Source of the DNA: Chloroflexota bacterium
GTDB taxonomy: Bacteria; Chloroflexota; Dehalococcoidia; JACPQD01
Direction of reading: 5' to 3'
Assembly: GCA_016190665.1 (NCBI GenBank)
Contig: JACPQD010000032.1
Coordinates: 1-64,000, forward strand
DNA length: 64,000 bases
The notes below the pieces were generated by a model that did no database searches, was not told where the DNA came from, and saw only the letters and a list, made by a program, of their open reading frames with translations. How positions within the stretch are numbered: the stretch's first letter is position 1; the number at the start of each line of letters is the position of its first letter. The position numbers were made by a program, and so were the translations under genes. Of the stretch, positions 33,025 through 42,372 are shown in pieces.

Positions 33025-33651
33025 ATGCTTGGGATTTCACCCGATGACCCGACCCCATTGAAGGAGGCCTCCAGTGGCCGCCTCTTCTCGGTGCGCCGGG
33101 CCATGGTCGGCCTGCTGGTCGCGTTGGCTGTGGGTGGGTTTGCTTATGCAGCTACCCTTGGCGACGGCCGCGGCGGCAGCGAGAGCGGCCTCTTTGCATC
33201 GGCGGCAACCGGGGCGATGCCTCGCGCGGCCCGCGGCGAGCAAGCTCCGGATTTCACGCTTCCGGACTTGAACGGCGAGCTGGTAAGCCTGAGCGGCCTT
33301 CGGGGGAGGCCGGTGGTGCTCTTCTTCTGGACCACCTGGTGACAGTGGTGCCGTCGGGAGTTGCCCGAACTGGAGGCCACGTACAAGAAACTCAAGTCCC
33401 GCGGGCTGGTGGTGCTGGGCATCGACTTCGGGGAGGACAAAGCTGTGGTGGAGACCGCGGTTAGAGAGTTCGGGTTGTCCTTCCCGGTGCTATTGGACAC
33501 GTATGGGCAAGTAAACAAGACATATCGCACGGATGTCACCGGGCACCCGGCCCATTATTTCATCGACAAGTCAGGCAGGATTGTGGACACGCGGGTGGGG
33601 TACACCAACGAGGCGCAACTTACGACCAGACTAAGCTCCCTCGTTGAGTGA
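33025..33651 (+). CDS. TlpA/ResA-like thioredoxin with in-frame TGA at the first redox cysteine (probable selenoprotein)
   Basis: A 208-residue frame if TGA is read as Sec. A single N-terminal helix (about 27-47) anchors a periplasm-facing thioredoxin domain: GEQAPDFTLPDLNGELVSL, VVLFFWTTW, then TGA-CAG-TGG-TGC, i.e. U106-Q-W-C109 in place of the family CxxC, followed in the same frame by RRELPELEATYKKL, LVVLGIDFGED, and the cis-proline loop TGHPAHYFID. TlpA/ResA proteins reduce apocytochrome c or related thiols during cytochrome c maturation, and the ccm genes follow downstream. Conventional calling would split this gene at 33342/33361. A hairpin follows the TGA. GTG 33022 is an alternative start. 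Confidence 0.85.
33343..33372 (+). promoter_or_regulatory. SECIS-like hairpin after the TlpA TGA
   Basis: TCGGG-AGTTG-CCCGA (33354-33368) forms a five-pair stem whose loop begins 17 nt after the TGA, with an outer CAGT/ACTG pairing (33343-33346 with 33369-33372). The loop contains GTTG, also found at the same distance in the CcdA/DsbD-like gene. Position and apical GU fit bacterial SECIS elements. Confidence 0.55.
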
Positions 33652-33752
33652 CGCCAGGGCGGCATCGAGGCGATCGCCGGAAAGGCGCCACAAAGGCATA
33701 ACTTAGACGACGCGAGCGCGTCGGCTCAGACAGACCCAGGAGGTGCAAACAG

Positions 33753-34799
33753 GTGCTACGCAAATTCAGCAGGCCAACTTCGCGAGCAGCGCAACGCGTC
33801 TTAGCCCTGGCAGTCGGCAAGAGGTCGGGCCCGCTGCTGGCTGCGGCGCTGACCGCCGCTCTGGTTGGCGCCGCGCCGCTCAACGCCAGCGCCGAGCCTC
33901 AGTCCCTGTCCATCAAGAATATGAAGGTCTCCGTTCAGCCGGAGTACGATGACCCCCGCGTACTGGTCACTTACGAAGGTGAGTTCGTAGGCGAGTCCAG
34001 CTTCGGCAGGAAGGTACAGTTCTTCATTCCCAAAGGAGCGGAAATCAACCAGGTGTGCGCCCTGAGGAAACCAGCCGACGAACACCTTTGCCAGCTCTAC
34101 GACACCGACGCGGCGTCTCAATCTCTGACCTTCACCCTCCCCATTCCCACCTTCTATCTGGAGTTCTACTATCAGCCGCTGGAAGGCTCGCCGGACAAGA
34201 AGATGGACTTTGGTTTCCAGTCTTTCTATCCCGTCGGCAAGCTGCAACTCGATCTGCAACAGCCTCTGCGGGTGAGCAACTTCGTAGCCACTCCCAAGGC
34301 CGAAAAGATAGGCACTGACGGCAGAGGGTTCAGCTACCATCAGTACCAGTTCGACAACGTGACTGCCAACCAGCCCGTGAAGGTATCCGCCTCCTATACA
34401 AAGACCGATCCCAAGCCCTCGGTGGAAAAGGCCAAGCCCGGCGCCGCCGGTACGGGGGACGTTAATGTGATCCTCCTGGGGGCGATAGGGATTGGCATCC
34501 TGGGTTTGGTCGCCTTCTATGCCATGGGCAAGCGGCGCCCACAGCCGGTCCGAGTGTACAATCGACGACCCGGTCCGCCCGCGTATTCCCGGGGGCCCGA
34601 CCCGGCGGTCAACATACCGCAGCGGGCGCCCGCTCAAGCGTCACGGCAGGCGCGCGCGACGGCGAGGGGCAGGACCGCTGTAGCCCCACCCATCGCCAGG
34701 GAAGCAAGAGCTTCCTTCTGCACCAGTTGCGGCACTGAGATACTGGCGGACGAGAACTTCTGCCCTAACTGCGGGCAGAAGGCGAGGAAACTTGGATAG
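33753..34799 (+). CDS. Exported/membrane protein with C-terminal zinc ribbon
   Basis: A 348-residue protein: signal peptide (ending near ASA, residue 47), a beta-rich extracytoplasmic domain (about 50-210), a membrane helix (about 232-252), a Pro/Arg-rich cytoplasmic segment and a zinc ribbon (CTSCG...CPNCG) at the end. The domain order resembles the other large membrane protein of the cluster at 38749. Function unknown; location suggests a part in cytochrome c assembly or the envelope. GTG 33753 has AGGAGG upstream. Confidence 0.8.
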   Translation: MLRKFSRPTSRAAQRVLALAVGKRSGPLLAAALTAALVGAAPLNASAEPQSLSIKNMKVSVQPEYDDPRVLVTYEGEFVGESSFGRKVQFFIPKGAEINQVCALRKPADEHLCQLYDTDAASQSLTFTLPIPTFYLEFYYQPLEGSPDKKMDFGFQSFYPVGKLQLDLQQPLRVSNFVATPKAEKIGTDGRGFSYHQYQFDNVTANQPVKVSASYTKTDPKPSVEKAKPGAAGTGDVNVILLGAIGIGILGLVAFYAMGKRRPQPVRVYNRRPGPPAYSRGPDPAVNIPQRAPAQASRQARATARGRTAVAPPIAREARASFCTSCGTEILADENFCPNCGQKARKLG

Positions 34800-40533: not shown

Positions 40534-40953
40534 ATGGATAACGAAGGACGCCGGTTGCCGGGCCGGCGGTCAGAGCCTGAATGGGAGATGTTCGCGGAGA
40601 CGCAACGTTGTTCGGCTCCGGAGCCGCCGCCGATACGTTGGCGCACCTTCGTGTTTGTAACTGTGGGTGCGATAATCGCCGTCGCTGTGACCTACTACCT
40701 GTACGTCGCTGCTCAGAATGCTATGGCCGGAGTCGGTTTGAACGTTCCGCCTGATCAGATTTACGTGCAGCGTTGCGGCTCTTGTCATGCCGCTCCCCCA
40801 CCTGAGAAGTTCGCATCATGGGGGCCGAAGGACTGGGACCGGATGCTGCCGCTAACCATGTTTATGGCCGGAGAGAAGGAGGAAGTCCACCATTACCTGG
40901 ACCGGGTGAGCAGGGGAGGTGGGATTCTGCCCGGCGCGAGACAGCCTTCTTAG
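40534..40953 (+). CDS. Membrane-anchored monoheme cytochrome c-like protein
   Basis: A 139-residue protein with a helix (about 39-60) and one heme motif RCGSCH (about residues 79-84) followed by AAPPPEKFASWGPKDWDRML, with Met residues that may supply the sixth ligand (LTMFMAG). It is a plausible electron carrier made by the adjacent ccm system. ATG 40534 has CTGGAG upstream. Confidence 0.85.
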   Translation: MDNEGRRLPGRRSEPEWEMFAETQRCSAPEPPPIRWRTFVFVTVGAIIAVAVTYYLYVAAQNAMAGVGLNVPPDQIYVQRCGSCHAAPPPEKFASWGPKDWDRMLPLTMFMAGEKEEVHHYLDRVSRGGGILPGARQPS

Positions 40954-41037
40954 CCGGGCGCGGTATCTAAGAGTGAAGAATGCAGAAAACCTTGTCAGTT
41001 GACACCGTACCTTCGGGGTCGAGGGAAAACGTAAACT

Positions 41038-42372
41038 TTGAAGTCATACTCCAGTAGGGTCGTGCGCTCAGGCGCTGCTTTGGCAGTTCTCATACTCTTC
41101 GTGGCGGCTTTCTTCGCTCCAATGCCCGCCGGCGCTCAAACGGGGCCTCGTTTGGGGGAGGTGCACACTTTTTTCGCTCCTACCTGACATGATTGCCCGC
41201 CCTTCGTTGAAGGGACGCTTCGCCCCGCCGTCGAAAGCCGCGGCGGCAGGCTCATCTTCCATGACTTTACAGAACGTCAGCAGATGCAGCTCCTGATCGG
41301 CATGCTCGAGAAGATCCAACTGCCCAGAAAGTTCAACAGCCACATGTTCACCTTAACAGAGCGAGGCGGCACGACGCTGGTGCTGTTGGGACACGCCCCT
41401 CGTTTCCTCCTCGATCAAGCGCTGGACCTTCCCGGTCTGCCCCGCAAGCTCGTGATTGCCCAGGAGGAGATGCACAGCACGCCAAAGACCTATGACGTGT
41501 GGCCCTTCGAGGGCGAAGTCAGGACCGCCCCCCTGACAATGACGCTCTACGAAGCCCTCCGGCTGTCGGCCCCTTCCAGGCCCGCTGCTGCCCCCGGGGC
41601 GACCCCAGTGGCAAAGACGAACCCGGCGGTGGAGGCGAGCCCAGCGGCGAAGGATGTTTCTCCGGCGACAGCGACGAGCCCACCACCCAAGGATGTCTCT
41701 CCTGTCATCTTGCCGACGGTGATCGCCGCCGGCCTCGCTGATGGCATCAACCCCTGCGCCTTCGCGGTGATGGCCTTCTTCACGGCCGTACTCTTCGCCC
41801 TCAGACGCTCGCGCCGGCATATCCTCAAGATCGGCGCTGCCTATATCGCGGCGATGTACCTCACCTACTTTGCTATTGGCCTAGGGTTATTACGCTCCTT
41901 GGACCTTCTCGGCCAGCCGCACCTCGTCATCCAGGCTGGGGCGGCAATCGTCATCGCGCTGGGCCTCATTCAACTGAAGGACGGCCTGCTGCCCGGCCTT
42001 CCGCTTCACCTCACCATACCGAGGCTCGGCTGGCAACTGATCCAGTCCTGGGCCAGACGCGCCAACCTCCTTGCGGCTGCCGTTGTTGGCGGACTTGTGG
42101 GCTTGTGCACATTGCCGTGTTCGGGGGGCATCTACGTGGCGATACTCGGTATGCTGAGCTCCCAGACAGGCTTCGTCGATGGGTTCGGCTATCTGGCGCT
42201 GTACAACCTGATGTTCATCGTCCCCCTGATCGTTATACTCCTGGCAATCACCAGTCGCCCCATGTCCCTCGCACTGGCGGGTTGGGAACGGGCTCATACG
42301 AGGGCTCTCCATGGCGCCACAGGCGCCATCATGGTCGCTCTCGGCGTCTTCATCCTTGGCTGGCTGAGTTGA
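41038..42372 (+). CDS. CcdA/DsbD-like membrane protein with N-terminal Sec-containing thioredoxin domain (probable selenoprotein)
   Basis: A 444-residue frame if TGA 41185-41187 is read as Sec. TTG 41038 begins a signal peptide (core AALAVLILFVAAFFA); the mature domain starts EVHTFFAPT, then U50-H-D-C53 in place of CxxC, with the same frame continuing as PPFVEGTLRPAVESR. A Pro/Ala linker leads to a six-helix CcdA/DsbD domain with Cys240 (GINPCAF) and Cys361 (LCTLPCSGG), the pair that carries electrons across the membrane. DsbD/CcdA proteins pass reducing power from cytosolic thioredoxin to periplasmic partners such as TlpA and CcmH. Ordinary calling would start at 41284 and lose the whole redox motif. 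A GTTG-loop hairpin follows the TGA. Confidence 0.85.
41188..41214 (+). promoter_or_regulatory. SECIS-like hairpin after the CcdA/DsbD-like TGA
   Basis: CCCTT-CGTTG-AAGGG (41200-41214) is a perfect five-pair stem whose loop begins 18 nt after the TGA. Loop sequence and distance match the hairpin in the TlpA-like gene. Confidence 0.55.

Follow-up and report, generated by a model that had tools for sequence, protein, structure and literature searches.

Why would two genes of a cytochrome c maturation cluster each be interrupted by a TGA codon at the active site? The question is raised by a 64,000-nucleotide stretch of DNA (the window) from a Chloroflexota bacterium of the class Dehalococcoidia (assembly GCA_016190665.1, contig JACPQD010000032.1, positions 1 to 64,000). 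Here, a run of cytochrome c maturation (ccm) genes includes two genes for thiol-redox proteins in which TGA takes the place of the first cysteine codon of a CxxC motif. One encodes a TlpA/ResA-like protein (site 1), and the other encodes a CopG-like domain fused to a CcdA-type membrane part (site 2). We consider it likely that both codons are read as selenocysteine (Sec, or U). A preliminary description of the window had read them in this way and had proposed a Sec-based reductive branch of cytochrome c biogenesis.

Two in-frame TGA codons and their counterparts in relatives

At site 1, the TGA (33340-33342, + strand) is the first position of UQWC, in the context TTW-U-QWC; at site 2, the TGA (41185-41187, + strand) is the first position of UHDC, in the context APT-U-HDC. 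With the TGA read as a residue, each gene forms a single frame, 33022-33651 (209 amino acids) and 41038-42372 (444 amino acids, start codon uncertain). A further TGA closes each gene (33649-33651 and 42370-42372), and mechanical read-through of every TGA extends the frames to 33804 and 42393; we took the terminal codons as stops because homology stops there. Under translation table 11, the first gene is split into 33022-33342 and 33361-33651, and 41284-42372 is the only part of the second gene that is listed (among open reading frames [ORFs] of at least 80 amino acids). The read-through frames, the codon positions, and the family matches across each TGA bear out the preliminary description's claim that TGA replaces the first cysteine in two frames of the cluster, with homology in the same frame on both sides. 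The Pfam families AhpC-TSA and Redoxin are above their cut-offs and span site 1, and the second protein matches CcdA-type proteins over at least 90% of its length. Decay of the frame behind the TGA, which the description had named as refuting evidence if seen in close relatives, is seen at neither site.

The protein at site 1 has the TlpA-type thioredoxin fold with UxxC in place of CxxC, and its best NCBIfam match is ResA (116 bits, with a cut-off of 170). Its N-terminus is hydrophobic by eye, and it is predicted to be exported. We searched 60 genomes of the class (including this one) for TlpA-like proteins and inspected all 19 of the TGA-bearing matches from other genomes among the matches listed. 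In 12 of the 19, the TGA aligns with the window's Sec codon (nine with UxxC and three with UGC); in the other seven, it lies at the peroxiredoxin TxxU site (three) or elsewhere (four). Because 12 of the 19 share the codon position, the TGA at site 1 is more than chance. These 12 sites are spread over 10 genomes, and all 10 have a match to tRNA-Sec of at least 60 bits (p = 0.0012), as do 33 of the 60 genomes, this bacterium not being among the 33. All 12 of the class matches to tRNA-Sec that we checked were called tRNA-SeC by ARAGORN.

For site 2, the preliminary description had placed Sec in a CcdA/DsbD-like protein. The membrane part is of the CcdA type, as proposed, but the predicted Sec belongs to a thioredoxin-fold domain at the N-terminus and not to the CcdA channel. 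The motif residues of this domain are U50 and C53. The membrane part has two cysteines (C240 and C361), which 120 of 122 homologues share; the two exceptions are short entries. At E values of up to 1, DsbD_TM matches 18 of 52 homologues, SfLAP matches 28, and DUF411 matches 11 (weakly). A sequence search against solved structures gave no safe match, and for the full-length model Foldseek had no match below E = 0.001. The best structural match of the N-terminal domain, as modelled with AlphaFold, is CopG (6wis and 6wje), so the domain is predicted to have the CopG fold. The CxCC copper-ligand motif of CopG is absent, with UHDC instead.

Homologues of this domain show the exchange of Cys and Sec that the description had proposed as a check (as do the TlpA-like proteins, some of which have Cys at site 1). 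Genome G021 encodes the domain as a protein of its own, whose gene has TGA at the window's codon (51% identity across the domain), and a second copy is fused to CcdA with Cys at the site. G046 also has TGA at this codon, and its frame is lost about 40 residues behind UHDC. G027 has Cys, and the gene for the domain lies directly before ccdA. The domain is thus found alone, beside ccdA, and fused, which makes three arrangements of one domain. When the class was searched with the domain alignment, four of 393 genomes had the domain, and a search of the phylum gave a match in 61 of 400 (this bacterium included in both). Besides our gene, four listed matches in the phylum search have one TGA; in the two whose TGA position was looked at (L100 and L102; G471 and G570:C19 were left out), it lies away from the CxxC. 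A scan of genome contigs found two loci, both in the G021 assembly.

Of 248 homologues of the fusion in the protein database, 120 were listed, and 107 of these have C-x-x-C. The site is absent from the other 13, which are the entry of the window gene itself, the nine entries nearest to it (P0002-P0010; 54-61% identical), and three others. The window's own entry begins behind the TGA site, and the nine begin likewise, at an internal Met. In contrast, none of the three begins with Met (three of the 110 other listed entries; Fisher p = 2e-11 versus the nine closest). Two entries that are 70-71% identical to the G021 protein (P0121 and P0122) also begin behind the site. Judging by these protein entries, P0002-P0010, P0121, and P0122 are probably Sec genes that were shortened by gene callers.

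Sec codons should be followed by a selenocysteine insertion sequence (SECIS), and both TGAs are followed by SECIS-like hairpins. We scored a stem with an apical loop starting 18-28 bases from the T of TGA and with a G within the loop's first two bases. Four TGA sites from this genome score 14, 19, 21, and 18, as compared to a mean of 7.3 for control codons (9,935 codons in 24 window ORFs; p = 5e-4), and 18 sites taken together differ from the controls with p = 5e-9. The score at site 2 is reached by 1.7% of the control codons. Among the TlpA-like genes (43 loci scored, four with an aligned Thr being left out), 12 TGA sites have a mean of 15.1 and 27 Cys sites one of 8.3 (p = 8e-4), and a score of at least 15 is reached by eight of the TGA sites versus four of the Cys sites. 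For the site 2 domain, the TGA sites of the window and G021 score 19 and 16, versus 6, 2, and 5 at three Cys homologues.

The genome (G000) is a draft of 4,998,043 bases in 107 contigs, with 96.55% completeness. The selA, selB, and selD genes that the description had proposed to look for are all there. Contig C84 encodes both SelB (353 bits) and SelA (469 bits), and contig C56 encodes SelD (386 bits) with one inner TGA, at the active-site GUAAK. Stretches that were read for other purposes contain three more genes with in-frame TGA: a second TlpA-like protein with ASW-U-PYC (L058:9283-9852, contig C81), a DUF3179 protein with ITY-U-PLC (L142:3033-4016, contig C9), and a UGSC protein with GA-U-GSC (L148:4321-5193, contig C56). 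The latter two are above their Pfam cut-offs; with the NCBIfam UGSC model, the UGSC protein scores 56 bits, short of the cut-off of 125. PMC13188914 counts both DUF3179 and UGSC among selenoprotein families. Because it has selA, selB, a Sec-type selD, and further selenoprotein families with in-frame TGA, this bacterium looks like a user of Sec.

One more possible selenoprotein was seen in G021, on contig C88 (L044), upstream of the Cys-type CcdA fusion. This protein contains GC-U-PPN and may belong to DUF1573, which it resembles.

Cytochrome c reduction or copper handling

If both codons encode Sec, what would the two proteins do? CcdA carries electrons outward, and the mechanism that we propose builds on this role and that of TlpA. 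SelB and tRNA-Sec would decode each TGA, aided by the hairpin directly behind it. Electrons would pass from cytosolic thioredoxin to the membrane pair C240/C361 of the CcdA part, then to U50-x-x-C53 outside the membrane, and from U50/C53 to the Sec-containing TlpA-like protein, CcmH, and apocytochrome c, or else to copper-binding thiols. The analysis itself shows the codons, the homology, the Sec genes, the exchange of Cys and Sec, the enrichment of hairpins, and the predicted fold; we infer Sec insertion as such, the way the electrons run, their partners, and what is finally reduced. According to PMC7558416, TlpA serves the copper sites of oxidases, so targets in cytochrome c and in copper centers may both hold.

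The setting favors cytochrome c. As the preliminary description stated, ccmF, ccmH, and ccmE lie between the two TGA genes, and all three are above their Pfam cut-offs. All genes of the cluster are on the + strand, with overlaps or with gaps of at most 293 bases. In the fullest form of the proposal, the Sec-containing CopG-like CcdA would pass electrons selenol-to-selenol to the Sec-containing TlpA-like protein, and both outer thiol steps of cytochrome c (possibly CuA) maturation would rely on Sec. We put this forward tentatively.

Several observations weigh against such a route. In both G021 and G027, a P-type ATPase is encoded near a homologue of the Sec domain; the one in G027 has two heavy-metal domains. 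These two neighborhoods share a second gene (E = 2e-20), and by eye we recognized no ccm gene in their ORF lists. The genome encodes three further DsbD_TM proteins, so the fusion need not be the sole carrier. The membrane part of the fusion itself scores 22.1 bits with DsbD_TM, below the cut-off of 27.1. Also, ccmA, ccmB, and ccmC were not found among the scanned window proteins (a scan confined to the window and covering part of its ORFs).

Because two homologues of the domain lie near P-type ATPases, copper handling rivals cytochrome c reduction. Both codons would still encode Sec, but outside the membrane the fusion would reduce Cu(II) or thiols that bind copper, and another CcdA would serve cytochrome c. 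This account, which also fits the CopG-like fold of the Sec domain, is a real possibility, although we would not bet on it. Against it, the gene for the fusion shares its run in the window with ccmF, ccmH, and ccmE; the domain has UHDC in place of the CxCC of CopG; and the ATPases of G021 and G027 may serve a metal other than copper. As for the Sec-based reductive branch in the preliminary description, Sec at both sites and the ccm setting are upheld, but a single shared electron route is put in doubt by the ATPase neighbors, the CopG-like fold, and the other DsbD_TM genes.

Points against selenocysteine and the weaker alternatives

The clearest difficulty for Sec at either site is that we did not find tRNA-Sec (selC), which the description had proposed to look for, in the 107-contig draft. 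The Rfam model RF01852 gave tRNA-Ser and other tRNAs alone, below the cut-off; an exact pattern had no match; a model built from 12 tRNA-Sec of the class scored tRNA-Ser best; and ARAGORN reported no tRNA-Sec on the contigs with selA/selB (C84) and selD (C56). Scoring by the search tool covered its best 150 candidates. G046, which has TGA at site 2 and is 73% complete, also lacks a tRNA-Sec match of at least 60 bits. Contamination of our genome is estimated at 6.13%. The hairpin data have their own weaknesses: the score was devised after the folds of five sites had been seen, and those of the 12 class sites were likewise known before the comparison with Cys sites. The score at site 1 is reached by 8.4% of the 9,935 control codons, and four of the 27 Cys sites reach at least 15, with a maximum of 21. 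Some TGA sites have low scores (6 for L126 and 5 for L135, both TlpA sites, and 10 for G046), and RNAfold z-scores at the two window sites are weak (-1.41 and 0.10 with 46 bases; 0.03 and -0.47 with 66 bases). All of these points count against Sec. Because the genome is incomplete, we do not view the missing tRNA-Sec as decisive, and our reading is that the gene fell into an assembly gap.

We considered whether contig C84 is a contaminant, which seems unlikely. Its tetranucleotide correlation with the window is 0.80-0.82, versus 0.81-0.84 within the window and 0.60-0.75 for C84 with stretches of two other genomes, although the test is coarse (one part of the window reaches 0.78 with G027). The piece with selD is too short to judge (0.46-0.51 with stretches of the same genome).

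The TGAs might instead be ordinary stops, with genes that are decayed or are split and restart behind the stop. Table 11 does give a 362-amino-acid ORF with its own ATG behind the second TGA, and a missing tRNA-Sec would be expected. However, both genes and their counterparts in related genomes have the TGA where CxxC has its first Cys, the sequence that follows is conserved, and loss of the active site in all nine of the closest listed relatives is unlikely. Given the shared codon, the homology behind it, and the contrast in hairpins between TGA and Cys sites, we rejected chance stops or decay and regard this explanation as improbable.

An error of sequencing or assembly could have made TGA from Cys codons, and the genome is a draft in 107 contigs, but independent genomes share the TGA at this codon and hairpin scores are higher at TGA than at the Cys counterparts, which makes such an error very improbable. 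It is just as hard to credit that another suppressor tRNA reads TGA as Cys or another residue: the missing tRNA-Sec would fit, but selA, selB, and a Sec-type selD are present, and all 10 of the other genomes with TGA at site 1 among the matches listed have a tRNA-Sec match of at least 60 bits.

Known relatives and surroundings of the cluster

The protein at site 1 is a new member of a known family of TlpA-like selenoproteins, with which it shares the fold family and the UxxC motif; it differs by opening a ccm cluster. Table 1 of PMC13188914 includes such UxxC proteins as thiol-disulfide isomerase-like (cd02966) and Prx-like thiol:disulfide oxidoreductase (PF00578) selenoproteins.

A CcdA-type carrier with a CopG-like domain in front would be a new kind of selenoprotein. 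The fusion has the CcdA-type membrane part and its two conserved cysteines in common with CcdA/DsbD, and differs by the Sec-containing thioredoxin-fold domain in front; E. coli DsbD is built with other domains and uses only Cys. The closest solved fold to the N-terminal domain is CopG/DUF411 (6wis and 6wje), which has CxCC according to PMC7558416, whereas our domain has UHDC and is fused to CcdA. The nearest precedent by name is TsoB (NF045694), a rhodanese/DsbD fusion-like selenoprotein described in PMC13188914. It has a UxxxxU motif and a rhodanese part, and its model does not match the window's CcdA fusion. The 119-family selenoprotein table of 2026 (Table 1 of PMC13188914) contains no CcdA fusion and no CopG/DUF411 protein. 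Among open-licence papers, the titles and beginnings of abstracts that our searches listed gave no report of a Sec-containing CcdA, a Sec-containing CopG/DUF411 protein, or Sec-based cytochrome c maturation. The novelty that the preliminary description saw in a Sec-based branch is therefore reduced by TlpA-like UxxC and rhodanese/DsbD fusion-like selenoproteins already in print, and it persists, as far as that table goes, for the fusion of a CopG-like Sec domain with CcdA.

If our reading is correct, the membrane thiol relay behind the maturation of c-type cytochromes or copper centers makes use of selenium chemistry. Standard annotation would overlook this family: the database entries of the fusion's nine closest relatives, and of the two that are closest to the stand-alone G021 protein, lack the N-terminal part with the site. 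The domain also offers a testable case of exchange between Cys and Sec, in a protein that is fused to CcdA, encoded next to ccdA, or alone.

Table 1. Locations of the two candidate Sec genes, their parts, and the genes between them.
Feature	Position	Strand	Evidence
Candidate Sec TlpA/ResA-like thiol-disulfide oxidoreductase, 209 amino acids + TGA stop	33022..33651	+	AhpC-TSA 101.9 bits
Predicted Sec codon TGA, first position of UQWC	33340..33342	+	TGA aligned in 12 of 19 listed TGA-bearing class matches
SECIS-like hairpin, apical loop AGTTG at 33359-33363	33345..33380	+	Our hairpin score
Protein with zinc-ribbon tail	33753..34799	+	
Small protein without family match	34792..35361	+	
ccmF	35655..37670	+	CcmF_C 191.9 bits, Cytochrom_C_asm 137.4 bits
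ccmH	37660..38196	+	CcmH 81.2 bits
CcmI-like N-terminus with zinc ribbons	38193..38756	+	TIGR03142 21.4 bits, below cut-off of 29.3
Protein with a weak CarboxypepD_reg match alone	38749..40032	+	
ccmE, haem chaperone	40033..40428	+	CcmE 104.5 bits
Small c-type cytochrome candidate, CGSCH by eye	40492..40953	+	No family at cut-off
Candidate Sec protein with a CopG-like domain ahead of a CcdA-type membrane part, 444 amino acids + TGA stop	41038..42372	+	
N-terminal thioredoxin-fold domain, residues 38-168	41149..41541	+	AlphaFold models; CopG best match
Predicted Sec codon TGA, first position of UHDC	41185..41187	+	G021 and G046 also have TGA; G027 has Cys
SECIS-like hairpin, apical loop GTT at 41206-41208	41198..41217	+	Our hairpin score
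CcdA/DsbD-type membrane part, Cys codons 41755-41757 and 42118-42120	41701..42372	+	

Two genes in the ccm run end in zinc ribbons (33753-34799 and 38193-38756, in the latter behind the CcmI-like part); to our knowledge, such ends are unusual among ccm genes. Near the cluster, at 29014-30725, a gene for an ABC ATPase with a YHS domain is followed by a cupredoxin gene, which may point to copper. Farther away, positions 55330-63182 include a gene for an OLD-family ATPase/TOPRIM protein and, further on, a gene with T5orf172 and ResIII, and this part of the window resembles a defence or mobile region.

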